This document shows positions 47,444-55,813 of a stretch of DNA of 64,000 nt, piece after piece. The position numbers and the translations under genes were made by a program. The stretch lies in assembly GCA_028284945.1 (NCBI GenBank), contig JANQQJ010000035.1, forward strand, positions 1 to 64,000, written 5' to 3'. Position 1 is the stretch's first letter, and every line of letters begins with the position of its first letter. The notes below the pieces were generated by a model. That model was not told where the DNA came from. It did no database searches and worked only from the letters and a program-made list of their open reading frames with translations. Source of the stretch: Alphaproteobacteria bacterium. GTDB taxonomy: Bacteria > Pseudomonadota > Alphaproteobacteria > SMXS01.

Positions 47444-47586
47444 TGTGTGGCCAATGGGCTGAAGTGCTGAAAATCGGCTTTGAATCAGGCCGGGTTATCT
47501 TATTATCTAAAGGGCAAAGTGGAGTCGCCCGGTGTGGTCACGGCTAGTGGCCCGGGTGCTTCAGGACACAATTGATGACGGTTTGG

Positions 47587-47913
47587 ATGAGCGAAGATAA
47601 AGACGGCGAGGGCGGCGGCACCGGAACGGATGTTGTCACCAAAACCCGTACAAAAACCGAGAAGCCGTCCCTATATAAGGTCCTGCTGTTAAACGACGAC
47701 TACACACCGATGGAGTTCGTCGTCCATATCCTCGAAAGGTTTTTCAATAAGAACCGCGAGGAAGCGACTAATATCATGCTTACGGTGCATCAGAAGGGAA
47801 TCGGGGTCTGCGGGGTGTATACGTTTGAAGTCGCGGAGACCAAGGTGACCCAGGTCATCGACTATGCACGGCGGCACGACCATCCGCTGCAGTGCACTCT
47901 GGAAAAAGAATAG
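47587..47913 (+). CDS. clpS: ClpS adaptor of ClpAP
   Basis: The 108-aa N-degron adaptor has the core [16 protein letters not shown] with the N-D-D-x-T-P binding pocket and H-x-x-G-x-G-V-C-G-V-Y. The N-terminal tail, rich in Asp, Glu, Gly and Thr, inserts in ClpA. ATG 47587 is my choice; ATG 47575 is also possible. clpA begins 13 nt after its stop, the standard order. Confidence 0.94.
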
Positions 47914-47926
47914 ATAAGGTGATGAT

Positions 47927-50257
47927 GTGCCGGCGATTTCCCAAAATTTAGAGAAGACTCTGCACGGCGCGCTCGCGCTAGCAAACGAGCACAGGCATGA
48001 ATATGCCACGCTCGAACATCTTCTCTTCAAGCTGACCGAAGACGGCGATGCCATCGCTGTCATGCGCGCCTGTGGCGTCGATCTTGATAAGTTGCGGCAG
48101 ACGATCAGCGACTATTTCGAGCGTGAATTGGCAAGCATTGAGGTGTCTGACACGGCCGATGCCAAGCCGACTGCCGGCTTCCAGCGGGCCGTCCAGCGCG
48201 CGATTATCCATGTTCAGAGTTCGGGCCGTGAAGAGGTGACCGGCGCCAATGTGCTGGTGGCGATTTATTCAGAGCGCGAATCGCATGCGGCGTACTTCCT
48301 GCAGGAGCAGGATATGACGCGGCTGGATGCGGTGAACTATATCTCGCATGGCATTGCCAAGACAGGCGGCAATACCGAGAGCCGTCCGCCCCAAGGGGTT
48401 GAGCCGGAAGGCGAAGCCGCCCCCGCCAGTGCCGGCGAGGCATTGGAAACCTATTGCGTTAACCTGAACCAGAAAGCCGCAGACGGTAAAATCGACCCAT
48501 TGATTGGCCGCCAGGCGGAGGTTGAGCGGGTGATCCAGATCCTGTGCCGCCGGTCGAAGAATAATCCCCTGTTGGTGGGCGACCCTGGCGTTGGCAAAAC
48601 GGCCATTGCCGAGGGCCTGGCACGCCAGATCGTCAATGAGGAAGTGCCCACGGTTTTGAGTGAGGCGACGATTTTCTCGCTCGATATGGGCGCGCTGTTG
48701 GCGGGAACACGCTATCGCGGCGACTTCGAAGAGCGGCTGAAGGCGGTCGTCAAGGAAGTCGAGGAGCATGAAGGCGCGATCCTCTTTATCGACGAAATCC
48801 ACACGGTCATTGGCGCCGGTGCGACAAGTGGTGGGGCGATGGATGCGTCCAACCTACTGAAACCCGCGCTGCAATCGGGTGTGCTCCGGTGCATCGGCTC
48901 GACGACCTATAAGGAGTTCAGGTCCTATTTCGAAAAGGACCGCGCTTTGCTGCGCCGGTTCCAGAAGATCGATGTCACCGAACCGTCGGTCGATGACGCG
49001 ATCAAGATCATGAACGGGCTGAAACCGTATTTCGAAGAGCACCATCAGGTTCGCTACACCAATCAGGCGGTCAAGACGGCGGTAGAACTGGCTGCGAAGT
49101 ACATCCATGACCGCAAACTGCCTGACAAGGCCATCGATGTGATCGACGAAGTGGGCGCCGCCCAGATGCTGGTGCCTGAGAATCGCCGCCGTAAGACCAT
49201 TGGCGTTAAGGAAGTTGAAGACATTGTTGCCAAGATTGCGCGTATTCCGGCCAAGTCGGTGTCGCGTGATGACAAGCAGGTCCTGAAGGATCTGGTCGGT
49301 GATCTGAAGCGCGTGGTTTATGGCCAGGACGCGGCAATTGAGGCGCTGTCATCGGCAATCAAACTGTCGCGGGCGGGCCTTCGCGAGGAAGAAAAGCCGA
49401 TTGGCTCTTACCTGTTTTCCGGGCCTACGGGCGTTGGTAAAACCGAGGTGGCCCGCCAGTTGGCGAGCATCATGGGCATCGAACTCGTACGGTTCGACAT
49501 GTCGGAATATATGGAACGCCACAGCGTCTCGCGGCTGATCGGTGCGCCTCCAGGCTATGTCGGTTTTGATCAGGGCGGCCTGATGACCGATGCCATCGAT
49601 CAGAACCCGCATTGCGTACTGCTGCTGGATGAGATTGAAAAGGCGCATCCGGATGTTTTCAACGTCCTGTTGCAGATCATGGATCATGGCAAGCTGACCG
49701 ATCATTCGGGCAAGTCTGTCGATTTCCGCAACGCCATCCTGATCATGACGACCAATGCCGGTGCCGCTGAACTCAGCCAGGCCTCAATCGGCTTTGGCCG
49801 CGGCACCAAGGATGATGCGGACGACGAGGCCATCAAGAAGATGTTCACGCCGGAATTCCGTAACCGGCTTGATGCGACGATTGCGTTCTCGCATCTGGAC
49901 CCCTCCGTCGTGCGCAAGGTGGTGCAGAAGTTCGTGATGCAGTTGGAAGCCCAACTCAGCGACCGGAATGTGACATTCGAACTGACCGACCCGGCCGTCG
50001 ACTGGATCGTCGATAAGGGCTATGACCGCCTTTACGGCGCGCGTCCGATGGGCCGTGTGATCCAGGAGCACATCAAGAAACCGCTGGCTGACGAGCTGCT
50101 GTTCGGTAAGTTGGCCAAGGGCGGCCATGTGCTGGTCAAGGTGAAGGATGGGGCGCTGGATTTCGATATCGAACCATCCACGAAGGCGCCGTCGAAATCG
50201 AAGGCCAAGGCAAAGGCGAGCAAACCCGCAGAATCAGGCGAACCGGAAACCGTCTAA
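47927..50257 (+). CDS. clpA: ATP-dependent Clp protease ATP-binding subunit ClpA
   Basis: The 776-aa double-AAA+ unfoldase has a Clp N domain (about 1-145), AAA1 with Walker [10 protein letters not shown] and Walker [12 protein letters not shown]2 with Walker [10 protein letters not shown] and L-L-L-D-E-I-E-K, and the small C-terminal domain. The acidic and Lys-rich C-terminal tail is longer than usual. The start is GTG 47927. ClpP, its protease partner, is not in the window. It is convergent with the flotillin gene. Confidence 0.95.
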
Positions 50258-50287: not shown

Positions 50288-52060
50288 TTACCGGTCTGAT
50301 TGGGGTTCTTGGTCACCGTTGCTTTCTTCGCTGTCCTGAACGGGTTTAGTCAGGCCATTAAGATCCTGGCCTTCCATACCAATCTCGGAAAGCAGTGAGT
50401 CGATCAACGGTGCTTGAGCGCGGTACTTCAGCGCGCTGCTGACAACTTGGTCGGCCATGTTTCCCCCTACGGCGGGTTGTCCGCTTTCCTGTCCAGGGAC
50501 AGTCGCACCACCGTTTAGCCCATCGACCTGGATGATCTTGATGCTGTCGATCTGTTCCATCGGTTTAACGCTTTCGCGTACGATTTCGTCCAGGTTCTCG
50601 ATTAGCTTCATCTTGATCTGCATGGCGATCTGATCTGCGGATAGGACGTTGCGAGCCTCGTTGACAGCACGCGTACCTTCAGCTTCAACCCGGTATTCGA
50701 CCTCGTCTGCATCTGCCATAGCTTTTTTGGCCGAGGCTTCCGCTTGGGCGTTGATTAGCACTTCGTCTGCGGTGCCTCGTGCCTGTTCGCGAATGGCCTC
50801 AGCATTATCCGCAGCGGCAACCTTCTCGGCTTCTGCGGCGACCTTGACGGCGATGGCTTCACGCTCGGCCTGCTTGGCGGCTTCGATCAGCTCAATCTGT
50901 TTTTCTCGTTCAGCTGCTTCGGTCAGACGCGCAGTGACAACTTGTTCTTCCGCCTGGACGGCCATGGCCCGGGCAAAGTCGGCTTCCTTTTCGGCTTCCG
51001 ACTGGGCGCGGGATCGTTCGGCGATGGCAATGGCGCGATCCTGTTCGGCCAGCTCGACAGTTTTCTTGCGGTCGACATCCTGCGTTTCAATAGAACGTTC
51101 CTTTTCAATTTCCCGTTCCCGCACAATGCGAGTTTTCTGAATTTCTTCTTCCTCGACGGCACGCTCTGAGACAATCCGTGCGGTCTCAACCTCCTGCCGT
51201 GCGGCAATCCGGGCCTGTTCGGCTTCTTGTTCTTTCAATGCCTGTTCGCGAGCGATCTCCGCAGTTTGAGACGCCCGGCGAACTTCGACCTCTCTTTCTT
51301 GTTCTAGTTTCGCGTACTCCTCATCACGTTTGATTGTTAGAGTTAGCTTTTCCGCTTCCAGGTTCTTGCGCTCAACCTCGACCTGGGTGTCCTGCTCAAT
51401 ATCGTTACGAATTTTGCGGCGTTGCTCGATCTCTTCGGTCAGGCGGGTCAAGCCTTCTGCGTCGAACGCGTTTTGAGGATTGAAGAATTCCTTGCTGGTC
51501 TGGTCGAGGCCGGTGAGTGAAACGGCTTCGAGTTCCAAACCATTTTTCAATAGGTCTTCCGTGACTGCCTGTTGCACCTTCTGGACGAAGTTGGTGCGCT
51601 GTTCGTGTAGCTCCTCCATCGTCATTTCTGCGGCAACAGAGCGCAGGGCGTCGACGAATTTGCCTTCGACCAGCTCCTTCAATTGTTCCGGCATCAGCGT
51701 CCGCTGGCCCAATGTCTGAGCAGCAGCGGCGATTGATTCGATCGAGGGCTGAACCCTGACATAAAATTCCGCGACAACATCGACCCGCATTCGGTCGCGC
51801 GTGATAAGCGCTTGATCGTTGTGCCGGTGCACTGCCAGCCGGATGGTATTCATGTTGACCCAGATGATCTCGTGGACGACGGGCAGTACGATGGCGCCTG
51901 CGTCCATAGTCACCTTCTGGCCACCCATACCAGTTCGAACGAAGGAAAGTTCCTTGGTCGAGCGCTTATAGAGGCGCGTAATGATGAGGGCGATAGTTAG
52001 AAGGAGAATGAAACCGACTATAATGAGGACTGTTAAGCTGCCTCCGAAGCTGAAATTCAT
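50288..52060 (-). CDS. Flotillin family protein (YqiK-like)
   Basis: The 590-aa membrane-raft scaffold has one N-terminal membrane helix (about 9-29), an SPFH/band 7 domain (about 30-210) and a very long Glu/Ala/Arg-rich coiled coil (about 210-480). The C-terminal part contains the flotillin oligomerisation region near I-K-I-I-Q-V-D-G-L. In E. coli and others yqiK is paired with yqiJ, as here. The operon (RHH-like, PspA, YqiJ-like, flotillin) points to membrane stress response. Confidence 0.9.
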   Translation of the reverse strand: MNFSFGGSLTVLIIVGFILLLTIALIITRLYKRSTKELSFVRTGMGGQKVTMDAGAIVLPVVHEIIWVNMNTIRLAVHRHNDQALITRDRMRVDVVAEFYVRVQPSIESIAAAAQTLGQRTLMPEQLKELVEGKFVDALRSVAAEMTMEELHEQRTNFVQKVQQAVTEDLLKNGLELEAVSLTGLDQTSKEFFNPQNAFDAEGLTRLTEEIEQRRKIRNDIEQDTQVEVERKNLEAEKLTLTIKRDEEYAKLEQEREVEVRRASQTAEIAREQALKEQEAEQARIAARQEVETARIVSERAVEEEEIQKTRIVREREIEKERSIETQDVDRKKTVELAEQDRAIAIAERSRAQSEAEKEADFARAMAVQAEEQVVTARLTEAAEREKQIELIEAAKQAEREAIAVKVAAEAEKVAAADNAEAIREQARGTADEVLINAQAEASAKKAMADADEVEYRVEAEGTRAVNEARNVLSADQIAMQIKMKLIENLDEIVRESVKPMEQIDSIKIIQVDGLNGGATVPGQESGQPAVGGNMADQVVSSALKYRAQAPLIDSLLSEIGMEGQDLNGLTKPVQDSEESNGDQEPQSDR

Positions 52061-52087
52061 GCCTATGTCTCCTTATTGTTGTTGATC

Positions 52088-52792
52088 TTAGTGTGTGAGG
52101 CTCCTGCTCACGTCGCCAATGGCGAAATAGGTGCCGCCACCGCGGCGTACTAACAGGACGGATTGCCCCTCGTTAAAAGTTTCACTGTCTGTATCGGGTT
52201 CGATCATCACGTAGTGATCGCGGCCATGTTCATCTTTTACCTTGCCCTGCGCAGCAGAACCGAGTGTGGCTGTTCCCAGTACAATGATCGCGATCCGGCC
52301 GATCAGGCTGTCCTGGGACACCGCCAAGGTTTCATCCTTTGGCATAATCTTGCCGACGATCAGGCCCATAAACCGGGTAATCGGCAGGCTAACGACGAAT
52401 GCGGGAATAGCTGCCAGCCAAGCCGGCCACAAGAAGCCGAGACCTTCATAGGTAAACCCTTGCAGACCGATGCCCACCATCCCGAACGCCGACAGGAATA
52501 TGACGAACAAGACCAGAAACGGGACCCGGCCGACATTCAGCCAAGATAGCAGTGTGGCGAAAGAGCCAGGCGCATCCACACTGGGGGCGTCCATGTCGGG
52601 AATATCGACATCAGGAACGTCAATATCGGGAACGTCGATGTCGAGGTCGATATCGGGAAGGAGGCCGTCGACTGCCGAAGACAGGCTGCCGCCCAACACC
52701 ATGCTGACCAGCTCAATAACGCCGATCAGCACCATAAGACCTATGGCAATGCTAAAAGGCAGATTGGGTGCGGCGGCCAGAAACTCCCACAT
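52088..52792 (-). CDS. YqiJ-like NfeD-related membrane protein with Asp-Pro repeats
   Basis: The 234-aa inner-membrane protein has one N-terminal membrane helix (about 13-35), then an Asp/Pro repeat tract at residues 47-75 built of units like D-I-D-V-P. Two or three membrane helices follow (about 90-145), then a C-terminal OB-like beta domain (about 165-225) as in NfeD-family partners of flotillins. It lies directly upstream of the flotillin gene (27-nt gap). The repeat is not a usual feature of the E. coli protein. Confidence 0.78.
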   Translation of the reverse strand: MWEFLAAAPNLPFSIAIGLMVLIGVIELVSMVLGGSLSSAVDGLLPDIDLDIDVPDIDVPDVDIPDMDAPSVDAPGSFATLLSWLNVGRVPFLVLFVIFLSAFGMVGIGLQGFTYEGLGFLWPAWLAAIPAFVVSLPITRFMGLIVGKIMPKDETLAVSQDSLIGRIAIIVLGTATLGSAAQGKVKDEHGRDHYVMIEPDTDSETFNEGQSVLLVRRGGGTYFAIGDVSRSLTH

Positions 52793-52804
52793 CGTGTTCG
52801 TACT

Positions 52805-53485
52805 TTAGCCCTTGCGCGCCGACTTGATGGCGGCGAGCCGTTCCTTGACTCTATTGTCGTGAGCCAGTTGCTCGAGTTCGGCCAGCCTTGCGGCATTTTC
52901 AGCCTTCGGCCCGCCAAGGCCGGGGACACCGCCCGAATTCTCCAGGACCCGGTCAAATGCCGACGTCGCGTCGTCGATTGCTTTGTTGACTGAGTTGCCG
53001 GTATTAGTCCCGCCGTCGGCGCTTGGCTCTCCAGCTTCGATCTTTCGCGATTCCGCGAAGCGCTTCAATTCCTCGCGCATCTCGCGTTTCTTGCCTTTGA
53101 GCGCGGCGATAAAGCCTTCGAGCTCTTTTTCACGCTCGTTGCAATCTACAATTGTCTGCTCCAAGACCGGGATCTGAGCTTCGATGTCGAGCTGGCTTTC
53201 TACAGCCGCCTCGGCCAGATCATCCCGGCCCTCGTCGAGCGCCACTTCGATGCTCTTGCCCAGCCGTTCATGTTCGCTGTTCTTTTCGGCCAATCTCTTA
53301 TTGGCAAGGTGTTTAGCGGCTGACGTTTTGCCGAGCTCAAGGCGCACATCGTCAACAGCGTCATCGATCTCGCGAATTGCCTGTTCCATAACAACTTCAG
53401 GTGCGGCGCCTTCTACGGCGTCGACCAGCGCATTGAGACTGCCACTGATAATTCTACCGACTCGGCCTGCGATGTTCTCGGCCAT
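52805..53485 (-). CDS. PspA/IM30 family protein
   Basis: The 226-aa helical protein has the PspA pattern: an N-terminal amphipathic helix (R-V-G-R-I-I-S-G-S-L-N-A-L-V-D), then a long coiled coil with the A-I-R-E-I-D-D-A-V segment and Q-L-D-I-E-A-Q-I-P. PspA/Vipp proteins form ESCRT-III-like membrane-binding assemblies that protect leaking membranes. It lies 12 nt upstream of the YqiJ-like gene and 2 nt after the RHH-like gene. Confidence 0.88.
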   Translation of the reverse strand: MAENIAGRVGRIISGSLNALVDAVEGAAPEVVMEQAIREIDDAVDDVRLELGKTSAAKHLANKRLAEKNSEHERLGKSIEVALDEGRDDLAEAAVESQLDIEAQIPVLEQTIVDCNEREKELEGFIAALKGKKREMREELKRFAESRKIEAGEPSADGGTNTGNSVNKAIDDATSAFDRVLENSGGVPGLGGPKAENAARLAELEQLAHDNRVKERLAAIKSARKG

Positions 53486-53487
53486 TT

Positions 53488-54006
53488 CTAAGCCTCCTTC
53501 TTCTGTTTTTTCGTAGGGTCGATCATGCTCGACAGTTCAACGATATGGTCGGCATGATCACGGATAACGTTCGGATTAAAACAGGGCGCTCGTTCGGTAA
53601 CACCCAACCTTAACAAAGCCTCCATCAGCCGGAAACAGCGTTCCGCGAGGCCCTCTTCAGTTTTAAGCAAATCTTCCTTCGTCGTTTTGTCGCCGATCTG
53701 AGTGGCAAGAACAAAGGCAACCATGTCAGGCAGCCATTCGTTCATGATCGCAAGCAACTCTGACCGTTGATGAATTTCGTTCTGGGCGTGGCTTATCTCG
53801 TCGATCGCTGGTGTTAGTAGCTCGCGAGCGAGCCGCAACGCCCCTGCATAGCTGGACGGTCTGTCGCTGCGAGCGCGCGCCAGGCGAATGATCGCACGTA
53901 CTTTTTCGCTCGGGGTAACGGCATCATCCGAATTGAACCGAGCGATGAAGTCAGCCTCGTCTTGGGACAGGCGGACGCTTAGGGGAATAGATTTGGCTGG
54001 TGACAT
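53488..54006 (-). CDS. Uncharacterised protein with ribbon-helix-helix-like N-terminus
   Basis: The 172-aa protein heads the PspA-YqiJ-flotillin operon. Residues 6-42 (P-L-S-V-R-L-S-Q-D-E-A-D-F-I ... T-P-S-E-K-V-R-A-I-I) fit the strand plus two helices of a ribbon-helix-helix DNA-binding domain. The remainder is helical without a family I know. It could be the operon's autoregulator or a partner of PspA. Its stop is 2 nt before the PspA start codon. An AT-rich gap with a perfect palindrome lies upstream. Confidence 0.6.
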   Translation of the reverse strand: MSPAKSIPLSVRLSQDEADFIARFNSDDAVTPSEKVRAIIRLARARSDRPSSYAGALRLARELLTPAIDEISHAQNEIHQRSELLAIMNEWLPDMVAFVLATQIGDKTTKEDLLKTEEGLAERCFRLMEALLRLGVTERAPCFNPNVIRDHADHIVELSSMIDPTKKQKKEA

Positions 54007-54060
54007 GATCCTGAGACACTGGGTTGTGACAAATTCTGTATCATTATGTATTCATAAAAT

Positions 54061-54070
54061 GACAATTGTC
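54061..54070. promoter_or_regulatory. Palindrome in the PspA-operon control region
   Basis: The perfect 10-bp palindrome GACAATTGTC lies 55 nt upstream of the RHH-like gene, in an AT-rich stretch (54025-54100). On the minus strand a TAGACA, 18 bp, CATAAT arrangement overlaps it, so it could be an operator over the promoter. The 133-bp gap holds nothing else I can name. Confidence 0.35.
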
Positions 54071-54139
54071 TACAATTATTGCATATGTGTTCAAATCTTG
54101 CAGGCGCTCAGCCGTCAGATTACCTTTAACTGCAGTGAC

Positions 54140-55276
54140 TTATCCTGTTTTCCGGAATGGCCCGTGTTTTTCCAGGGCCCGCTGGTCGGCCTCCACATAG
54201 ACGCCTTCGTCCTGCAGATAGGCTTCCACCGCATTTCGAAAGCCTGCATCGGCGACCCAGTGCGCTGAATAGGTGAATTGAGGCAGGTAGCCGCGTGACA
54301 GCTTGTGCTGTCCTTGTGCACCGGCTTCTACCCGTCTGAGCCCGCGGTCGATGGCAAAGTCGATGGCCTGATAATAGCAGGTCTCGAAATGCAGGCAGGG
54401 GTGGTCTTCGACGCAGCCCCAGTTTCGCCCGTATAGCGCGTCCGTGCCCAAGAGGTTCAAGGCACCGGCGATATATCGCCCTGCGCGCCTGGCCAGCACC
54501 AAGACGACCTTGTCTGGCATGGTCTCACCGATCAGTGAGAAGAACGTGCGGTTCAGATAGGGACGGCCCCACTTCCGCGCCGAGGTATCGACATAAAAAT
54601 TGTAAAAGGCATCCCAATGGTTCTCCGTCAGGTCGGCGCCAGTGACGATTTCCATGGTGATGTCGTTTTCCACCGCCTGCCGGCGTTCCTTGCGGATGTT
54701 CTTGCGTTTTCGCGAGCTGAGCGCATCGAGGAAGTCGTCAAACGACCCGTAACCATCATTGTGCCAGATGAACTGCTGGTCCTTGCGTAGCAGCAGCCCG
54801 GCATCGCCCATGGATTTCCACTCGTCATAGGTCGGAAAGGTGATGTGCAGCGAGGAAACATCCATGCGGTCGGCGAATTCGATGCACGCCCGCAGCAACA
54901 GGTCTTTGGTTTCGATGTCATGGGCCAGCAGCCTTGGCCCGGTCACTGGCGAAAACGGTACGCTGATCTGCAGCTTGGGATAGTAGTTGCCGCCCGCGCG
55001 CTCATAGGCATGCGCCCAGCTGTGATCGAAGACATATTCACCTTGAGAGTGCGATTTCAGATACATCGGAACGCATCCGCGAAGTCCCGATTCCCCTTCG
55101 ATTACAACGTGATAGGGTGCCCAACCTGCCTCGGGTCCAACACAGCGGCTTTCTTCCAGCGCTGACAGAAAGGCATGGGAAACAAACGGGTTTTCCACCC
55201 CGGCACAGGCATCCCATTGATCTGCGGAGATCTCACTGATCGATTGAACCGCCCGGGCGGTAACGGCTGACGTCAT
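54140..55276 (-). CDS. GNAT-superfamily protein of the FemAB-like DUF482 group
   Basis: This 378-aa protein contains the DUF482/FemAB_like pattern: N-P-F-V-S-H-A-F-L-S-A-L-E-E-S near the start, Y-V-F-D-H-S-W-A-H-A-Y-E-R, Y-Y-P-K-L-Q-I-S-V-P-F-S-P-V-T-G-P-R, and a C-terminal acyltransferase-like half with F-E-T-C-Y-Y-Q-A-I-D-F-A-I-D. Such proteins are annotated as peptidogalycan biosynthesis or N-acetyltransferase; the acceptor is unknown. The start overlaps the RidA stop by 4 nt (ATGA). Confidence 0.82.
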   Translation of the reverse strand: MTSAVTARAVQSISEISADQWDACAGVENPFVSHAFLSALEESRCVGPEAGWAPYHVVIEGESGLRGCVPMYLKSHSQGEYVFDHSWAHAYERAGGNYYPKLQISVPFSPVTGPRLLAHDIETKDLLLRACIEFADRMDVSSLHITFPTYDEWKSMGDAGLLLRKDQQFIWHNDGYGSFDDFLDALSSRKRKNIRKERRQAVENDITMEIVTGADLTENHWDAFYNFYVDTSARKWGRPYLNRTFFSLIGETMPDKVVLVLARRAGRYIAGALNLLGTDALYGRNWGCVEDHPCLHFETCYYQAIDFAIDRGLRRVEAGAQGQHKLSRGYLPQFTYSAHWVADAGFRNAVEAYLQDEGVYVEADQRALEKHGPFRKTG

Positions 55277-55740
55277 TCGAAGGCAACCACCGCATCGACC
55301 TCAACCGCGACACCGGCAGGCAGGGCGTTGACGCCGACGGCCGCGCGCGAGTGGCGGCCCGTATCGCCAAAAACTTCCACCATCAGGTCGGATGCGCCGT
55401 TGATGACCTTGGGCTGGTCTTTGAAGTCGCCGGTACTACGGACAAAACCACCGAGCCGGACAATTCGGGTTACCCGGTCAAGGTCTCCATCAAGCGCCGC
55501 ATTCACCTGCGCCAGAATGTTGAGTGCGCAGAGCCGTGCGGCGTCCTGACCTTCCTCGACCGAAAAGTCATAGCCGACGATGCCGCGATAGTGCAGCCCG
55601 TCGGCATTCATGGGTACCTGGCCGGACACGAAGATCAGGTTGCCGGTGATCACATAGGGGACATAGCTGGCGACCGGTTCCGGCGGGTCTGGAAGCTCAA
55701 TTCCAAGGTCCTCTAGCCGTGCTGTAATTCGCCCGCTCAT
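55273..55740 (-). CDS. RidA family protein
   Basis: The 155-aa member of the RidA/YjgF/UK114 group, which clears reactive enamines, starts at ATG 55740. The trimer-interface pattern is seen: V-S-G-Q-V-P-M-N near 40, a middle N-I-L-A-Q-V-N segment and a C-terminal H-S-R-A-A-V-G-V-N-A-L-P-A-G-V-A-V-E-V. The arginine that binds the carboxylate in RidA is at the expected place in the S-R-A-A-V segment. It is coupled to the downstream DUF482 gene. Confidence 0.88.
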   Translation of the reverse strand: MSGRITARLEDLGIELPDPPEPVASYVPYVITGNLIFVSGQVPMNADGLHYRGIVGYDFSVEEGQDAARLCALNILAQVNAALDGDLDRVTRIVRLGGFVRSTGDFKDQPKVINGASDLMVEVFGDTGRHSRAAVGVNALPAGVAVEVDAVVAFE

Positions 55741-55813
55741 GCCACTATCCAACCGTTCGAGATCAATGATTTATAGCAGACCCTTGCGATGGGCCAAGCC
55801 CATCACACCAATA

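Follow-up and report, generated by a model that had tools for sequence, protein, structure and literature searches.

An RHH-like protein proposed as autorepressor of a PspA-YqiJ-flotillin operon

Analysis of a four-gene operon in a 64-kb stretch of DNA (the whole of which is referred to here as the window) indicated that its first gene, gene 1, probably encodes a one-component ribbon-helix-helix (RHH) protein that represses its own operon, a Psp variant that lacks PspB and PspC and has apparently spread horizontally. Most bacteria still pose the question of how Psp systems are turned on without PspF, PspB and PspC, and here a candidate regulator, a predicted operator and the target operon lie together in one four-gene unit. 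With one promoter, one small protein and one predicted binding sequence, the unit could be transferred whole to a laboratory host for testing, and the proposal would amount to a new mode of membrane-repair control in bacteria that is open to experiment.

The four-gene locus and its conservation

The operon consists of four minus-strand open reading frames running from 54006 to 50288, with intergenic gaps of 2, 12 and 27 nt; recomputing their positions reproduced the close packing noted in the original prediction. All coordinates are positions in the window.

53488..54006, minus strand: gene 1, 172 aa; no assigned family; RHH-like N-terminus at about residues 4-48 and predicted helical bundle at about 53-162; proposed autorepressor
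52805..53485, minus strand: pspA (PspA/IM30 family), 226 aa; PspA_IM30 (PF04012, 1.5e-14)
52088..52792, minus strand: yqiJ-like inner-membrane protein with YqiJ_N and OB fold, 234 aa; YqiJ_N (PF21001, 4.5e-36) and YqiJ_OB (PF07290, 6.1e-27)
50288..52060, minus strand: flotillin / SPFH protein, 590 aa; Band_7 (PF01145, 2.8e-16) and Flot (PF15975, 3.5e-42)

The PspA/IM30 profile detected a single copy in the whole genome, and the PspA of the window matched solved Vipp1/PspA structures by sequence at 5e-6. The original prediction had also noted that pspF, pspB and pspC are missing. For pspB and pspC this holds genome-wide, as the corresponding profiles gave no matches (an E. coli control was positive for both), and for the PspF activator gene it holds within the four-gene operon.

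In a survey of the conservation of gene 1 with pspA, each of the 26 distinct loci that contain a verified gene 1 relative had the same order, gene 1 preceding pspA and yqiJ, and because of this constant order gene 1 is more than a chance neighbour of the operon. The flotillin gene follows in 23 of these loci, while in the other three the contig ends earlier. Two weak single-gene matches were left out of the count, one without any query protein nearby (G486) and one of 44 aa (G020). The 26 loci span Alpha-, Beta- and Gammaproteobacteria as well as unnamed classes, with one located on a Vitreoscilla plasmid, and the four-gene unit has apparently spread horizontally. Among the 385 genomes of the class, 10 carry gene 1, and these carriers are the 10 best of the 14 PspA-subfamily matches in the same set. 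A 4-nt overlap between gene 1 and pspA is present in 13 of 22 loci. The distances of gene 1 correlate most strongly with those of PspA (Mantel r 0.82), followed by YqiJ (0.74) and flotillin (0.72).

The gene 1 protein

Searches with gene 1 gave no match in Pfam, nothing at E <= 1 in NCBIfam and PADLOC, and nothing useful in PHROGs or, by sequence, in the PDB; none of the curated family models exceeded its own cut-off, which counts against the proposed reading. Across 19 gene 1 members, Pfam returned scattered weak matches, each common to at most two members. When the N-termini were searched alone, weak matches were obtained to DUF6290 (0.0019, two members), NikA-like (0.17, two members) and CB_ParB_C (0.015, one member), which we take to be RHH-like families. 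Profile-profile comparison using hhalign aligned the 19 N-termini with 14 genomic RHH_1 (PF01402) members over 46 columns at a probability of 92 and an E-value of 6.7e-7, compared with probabilities of at most 8.5 (best E 0.004) for 40 column-shuffled sets and at most 2.8 for six PspA and three C-terminal segments. Within the strand region, all 19 members share S10 and R12, and positions 9, 11 and 13 are mostly hydrophobic, a pattern corresponding to the RHH-type alternation of outward-facing conserved polar and inward-facing hydrophobic residues. At the sequence level, the N-terminus matches the RHH (MetJ/Arc) type, as originally predicted.

In the AlphaFold monomer model, helices at residues 15-23 and 32-46 lie where the RHH fold expects them; the beta strand is not formed, residues 1-13 having pLDDT < 50, a point against the proposal, although a monomer run cannot reveal an intermolecular ribbon. 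Foldseek and VIA gave a few weak matches for the N-terminal model, among them SeqA, MazE-mt1 and TCP domains (best Z 3.6, MazE-mt1), which are presumably RHH-type DNA binders, and Foldseek found no solved structure with the same fold at E <= 0.001. The remainder of the protein is modelled as a helical bundle of about 110 aa, in agreement with the helical region proposed earlier. Foldseek with the whole model returned no match at E <= 0.001, leaving the bundle without a convincing fold match; the best VIA match, an ion channel (Z 5.5, 4.9 A over 79 residues), was rejected as helical-bundle noise.

Predicted operator and proposed regulation

RHH operators are usually, but not obligatorily, short symmetric repeats near the regulator's own promoter, and predicted sites of this kind are present near the promoter of gene 1. 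A conserved palindrome, TGTATACATATGTATACA, occurs upstream of gene 1 in 20 non-redundant loci. The palindromic motif reached a log-likelihood of 112.5 (17 upstream regions, width 16), compared with 29.9 +/- 2.0 and a maximum of 33.3 for 15 dinucleotide-shuffled sets. Leave-one-out scans of entire loci (4.5-16.5 kb) placed the top-scoring site no more than 160 bp upstream of gene 1 in 18 of 20 cases. The exceptions were L023, where it ranked second, and the window, where the sites ranked 2, 3 and 6 in 64 kb. Sites of at least 9 bits were found in 12 of 3008 other 160-bp stretches, and the operator is absent from six PspA-YqiJ-flotillin operons without gene 1, where scores near the operon start do not exceed 1.3 bits.

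54076..54093, no strand assigned: predicted operator box 1, TGAACACATATGCAATAA; 14.6 bits and best of the window with a matrix including the box, 11.9 bits and rank 2 when it is left out
54057..54074, no strand assigned: predicted operator box 2, TGTAGACAATTGTCATTT; 9.1 bits; over the predicted -35
54037..54054, no strand assigned: predicted operator box 3, TGAATACATAATGATACA; 10.9 bits; over the predicted -10
54043..54072, minus strand: sigma-70-like promoter, TAGACA-18-CATAAT; 10/12 matches

The original prediction of a self-regulated module had pointed to 54025-54100 for DNA binding, and it now gains predicted sites at 54037-54093, inside that region. Counting against the boxes of the window, they are weaker than those of most relatives, and a box-like site elsewhere, at 47816, scores 13.9 bits. 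The exact pattern GYATRCAWNYGYATRC missed the gene 1 operator in most genomes, including that of the window, and is too stringent to define a regulon. Its sole match in G000 falls within a gene. In G218, two more exact matches lie away from the operon, one between what we take to be malate synthase-like and aminotransferase-like genes and the other upstream of a presumably isocitrate-dehydrogenase-like gene.

The promoter site alone is weak, because three such sites occur in 4.3 kb compared with 1.9 expected. Its telling feature is its position beneath the boxes. In 17 of 20 loci the boxes lie on the best promoter-like site, compared with 10.4 expected at random placement, and this overlap is not independent of the motif, because the motif holds TTGACA/GTATAC words.

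We propose that the gene 1 protein acts as a dimer, the N-terminal ribbon of which would bind the palindromic boxes, spaced one or two helical turns apart across the -35 and -10. Box occupancy would repress, rather than activate, the gene1-pspA-yqiJ-flotillin operon, amounting to negative autoregulation, and the C-terminal bundle may serve as the effector part. Upon envelope stress the protein would let go of the DNA, and PspA, YqiJ and flotillin would then be co-produced, assembling at the inner membrane. We favour a version in which the bundle would sense the state of PspA, an arrangement that would mirror the PspF-PspA loop with a repressor in place of the activator; if the helical domain does read PspA, the PspA feedback principle would have evolved twice, the second time with an unrelated DNA-binding protein. 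A more far-reaching form, which we consider doubtful, is that one RHH protein would stand in for PspF, PspB and PspC in a Psp variant that is mobile and self-contained. Its bundle would be a regulatory domain of a new kind, responding to the assembly state of PspA (or to the membrane) and directly releasing a 10-bp-phased operator array.

A variant compatible with autorepression, to which we give even weight, is that PspA is not the signal: the helical domain would instead respond directly to a small molecule, a lipid or the membrane. Many one-component regulators carry helical ligand domains. Gene 1 contains no transmembrane-like stretch (highest 19-residue hydropathy 1.39), and its signal would therefore have to come from a ligand in the cytosol or through peripheral contact. 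The exclusive pairing with one PspA subfamily (10/10) exceeds the need of a generic ligand, although co-inheritance as one operon also explains it.

The sign of regulation is not given by the RHH match and the boxes alone, and gene 1 could instead be an RHH activator or a non-regulatory nucleoprotein on the same boxes, with the operon activated by gene 1 or a host factor and not repressed. We regard this as unlikely, since a layout with boxes over -35/-10-like sequence in 17 of 20 loci suits occlusion better than activation. About as unlikely, in our estimate, is that the boxes serve a host regulator, one of the GntR family for example, and that gene 1 acts elsewhere, for example as a PspA assembly factor. 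GntR-family sites typically contain GTATAC-type words too, which the words in the boxes resemble, and the two extra exact matches in G218 would fit such a regulator; however, the motif stays with gene 1 in several classes and on a plasmid, each with different host regulators, and the six sister operons without gene 1 do not have it. Rejected were a toxin-antitoxin system with an RHH antitoxin (the neighbour is PspA in 26 of 26 loci), a defence system (in PADLOC, gene 1, the YqiJ-like protein and flotillin had no match, and PspA had weak matches to JetC3, 0.00028, and LmuB, 0.0027, which resemble a shared coiled coil), a phage origin (no gene 1 relative in viral_contigs or phage records) and a relationship between gene 1 and PspA (no profile similarity; hhalign probability 0.2).

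Comparison with known systems

As in the proposed autorepressor unit, PspA is central and a regulator gene adjoins pspA in E. coli pspF-pspABCDE; PspF, however, is an AAA+ activator, whereas here a small RHH-like protein lies within the operon and the genome lacks PspB and PspC. The Bacillus subtilis pspA-ydjGHI operon likewise combines PspA with an SPFH protein, YdjI, which is required to bring PspA to the membrane, and with two membrane proteins; these partners are different, and the operon as described in that account has no RHH regulator (PMC8581546). In E. coli, NfeD-like YqiJ and flotillin-like YqiK are encoded in one operon, and the paper on yqiJ-yqiK contains 0 occurrences of PspA (PMC2636767). 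Alphaproteobacterial operons with a fused PspA (L075-L078, and L097 and L098 on Shinella and Agrobacterium plasmids) match the unit in their three membrane genes and gene order, but in place of gene 1 they have a long N-terminal PspA extension (about 165 aa in L075-L078), and they lack the operator. This extension gave no NCBIfam match, no Pfam match over the cut-off and only two PDB matches, at E 0.96.

Operons of PspA, a 3TM YqiJ-like protein and a TM, band-7 and flotillin protein were already described by Ravi et al. 2024 (PMC11237479), and the same genes occur together here. In the relevant passages of that work, PspA is paired with a CesT/Tir-like protein and with a novel AAA+ ATPase, and an RHH gene appears only as the last gene of a different PspA operon (spermidine-synthase group), whereas here an RHH-led four-gene unit has its own predicted operator. 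In the open-licence PMC literature, that work was the one paper found to join PspA, flotillin/YqiJ and RHH, and its supplementary tables may include the operon studied here. The gene 1 regulator and its operator were not found in the article texts of this literature. PspA-YqiJ-flotillin operons are known, and the gene 1 regulator with its predicted operator is new as far as searched.

Conservation and distribution of the four-gene unit

The four open reading frames of the operon were recovered as originally predicted, with gaps of 2, 12 and 27 nt from gene 1, the 172-aa first gene, to the flotillin gene:

53488-54006, minus strand, gene 1, no Pfam match
52805-53485, minus strand, pspA, clear Pfam match
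52088-52792, minus strand, yqiJ-like gene, clear Pfam match
50288-52060, minus strand, flotillin gene, clear Pfam match
54140-55276, FemAB-like gene (Pfam), ending 133 nt upstream of gene 1
47927-50257, downstream neighbour in the opposite direction to the operon, presumably clpA-like

The predicted absence of pspB and pspC also held, as a genome-wide search returned no PspB or PspC match in the source genome, and the single PspA_IM30 match was the PspA of the operon. Directly upstream, 54140-55752 holds the FemAB-like peptidoglycan protein gene (PF04339, 3.4e-161) and a YjgF-like gene. These neighbours look local to the lineage of the window, since among the other gene 1 loci searched they recur only in L028, a locus from the same family.

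Relatives of gene 1 were rare and scattered among genomes. Among related genomes, 4 of 60 had one (E ≤ 0.01; counting the source genome and a 44-aa match in G020 that was later dropped). Within the class the figure was 10 of 385 genomes, and within the phylum 6 of 398 (counting the source genome and a false match in G486). The class of G445 gave 1 in 78 and the class of G493 gave 3 in 369, and relatives also turned up at 11 loci in genome_contigs and in 1 plasmid record among 72,556. Named carriers were Lysobacteraceae, Arenimonas, Amphritea, Denitrobaculum, Sneathiellales, Kiloniellaceae and Vitreoscilla filiformis, whose plasmid pVF1 (NZ_CP022424.1, 269435-272989; L089) carries the whole unit, with gene 1 annotated as "hypothetical protein". 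A very large calcium-binding protein gene follows the unit on pVF1.

At all 26 distinct loci (sets of 18, 4 and 3 plus the window, counted once; one twice-seen genome omitted), pspA and yqiJ come next after gene 1, and flotillin follows in 23, the contig ending first in L017, L044 and L095; gene 1 is conserved with its partners. Thirteen of 22 loci show a 4-nt overlap between gene 1 and pspA. In a comparison of protein distances, gene 1 correlated most strongly with PspA (Mantel r 0.82, a value reached in none of 500 permutations), ahead of YqiJ (0.74) and flotillin (0.72). In the class sample, the 10 genomes with gene 1 took the first ten places in a search with the PspA-subfamily profile (all at E ≤ 7e-62), and the four remaining PspA matches (E 3e-46 to 3e-51) lacked gene 1, the E-value limit differing between the gene 1 and PspA searches (0.001 and 1e-30). 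The patchy occurrence of gene 1, together with its presence on a plasmid, suggests that the unit has been transferred as a whole.

Gene 1, yqiJ and flotillin persist in two loci with an apparently broken pspA, frameshifted into two tblastn pieces in L030 (8345-9015) and with an internal stop in L019 (2188-2847), which could be decay or assembly error. In L045, gene 1 is diverged, with a 259-nt gap.

RHH-like N-terminus of gene 1

The proposed ribbon-helix-helix (RHH) N-terminus found support at the profile level. Nineteen gene 1 N-termini, compared with 14 RHH_1 (PF01402) members from related genomes, gave an hhalign probability of 92 (E 6.7e-7, 46 columns); the full-length profile gave 80. 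None of the controls, namely 40 column shuffles, six segments of PspA and three from the C-terminus, exceeded 8.5. The strand pattern is K-S-x-P-L-S-V-R-L, with S10 and R12 invariant in 19/19. On this sequence evidence, gene 1 is RHH-like at its N-terminus. AlphaFold (mean pLDDT 74; 87-91 over 51-100 and 89-90 over 111-130) predicted a disordered strand followed by helices 15-22 and 32-46, and then helices 53-77, 83-101, 110-136 and 145-162. The N-terminal model alone gave weak structure matches (Foldseek E 5 or worse), including a TCP domain, SeqA and MazE-mt1, which we take to be RHH-type, and for the helical part no convincing match emerged from the fold searches.

Predicted operator and its association with gene 1

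A palindromic motif search of 17 non-redundant upstream regions (redundant L020, L021, L022, L025, L027 and L033 omitted) gave, at width 16, a likelihood of 112.5, against 29.9 ± 2.0 (maximum 33.3) in 15 shuffled sets. The consensus is GTATACATATGTATAC at width 16 and TGTATACATATGTATACA at width 18. With three loci added and each of the 20 omitted in turn, the site scoring highest across the locus lay in the 160 bp preceding gene 1 in 18; the exceptions were L023 (rank 2) and the window (ranks 2, 3 and 6 in 64 kb). Sites of at least 9 bits occurred in 12 of 3008 160-bp windows from other parts of 18 loci (the window and L019 aside). Three boxes were predicted in the window:

54076-54093, box 1, 14.6 bits (11.9 with the window left out of the matrix)
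54057-54074, box 2, 9.1 bits (9.1)
54037-54054, box 3, 10.9 bits (10.6)

In most loci, the second and third sites are displaced by 10 bp, or by roughly 20 bp, relative to the first. Such a spacing would be expected for dimers side by side on one DNA face, although in a palindrome whose half-sites are 10 bp apart such shifts are favoured anyway. The predicted promoter TAGACA-18-CATAAT is overlapped by boxes 2 and 3. Counting all 20 loci, the boxes overlapped the top promoter-like sequence in 17 (10.4 expected at random), the exceptions being L026, L035 and L045.

Near the start of six PspA-YqiJ-flotillin operons lacking gene 1, operator scores did not exceed 1.3 bits. In these operons, PspA carries a long in-frame N-terminal extension (about 165 aa in L075-L078):

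L075, 6210-7361
L076, 8231-9385
L077, 6600-7805
L078, 2891-4051
L097, 4027-5136
L098, 4027-5136

The extension is conserved in four genomes (45-90% identity to the first), and the long form is annotated in the Shinella and Agrobacterium plasmid records. NCBIfam gave no match for it, and none from Pfam passed a cut-off; it may resemble the N-terminal half of TnpB.

Operator-like sites also occur elsewhere. One at 47816-47833 in the window (13.9 bits), inside a presumably clpS-like reading frame (47572-47913) just before the clpA-like gene, is probably due to chance. Genome G218 has two further exact copies of the operator pattern (L090:4848 and L091:5204), one between malate synthase-like and aminotransferase-like genes and the other upstream of an isocitrate-dehydrogenase-like gene, which could mean that the regulon is wider or that a different regulator uses similar sites.

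Proposed regulation and comparison with known PspA operons

Alongside the established gene order, co-occurrence, RHH similarity, operator and tie of the operator to gene 1, we propose that a gene 1 dimer would bind the operator and repress the operon by occlusion, and that a signal acting on gene 1 would lead to derepression mediated by the helical domain. We tentatively prefer a version in which PspA contacts gene 1 directly. The downstream products fit a membrane-repair role: in Bacillus subtilis, PspA needs an SPFH protein to reach the membrane (PMC8581546).

Our literature search, which covered main texts, did not find the RHH-led unit, its tie to one PspA subfamily (seen in the class sample) or the operator in print. 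One survey (PMC9239133) notes that PspA occurs together with band 7, FloT and NfeD, and that PspA operons can include HTH regulators; PMC11237479 describes PspA with band-7/flotillin, YqiJ and a CesT/Tir partner, and an RHH gene that stands last in another PspA operon.
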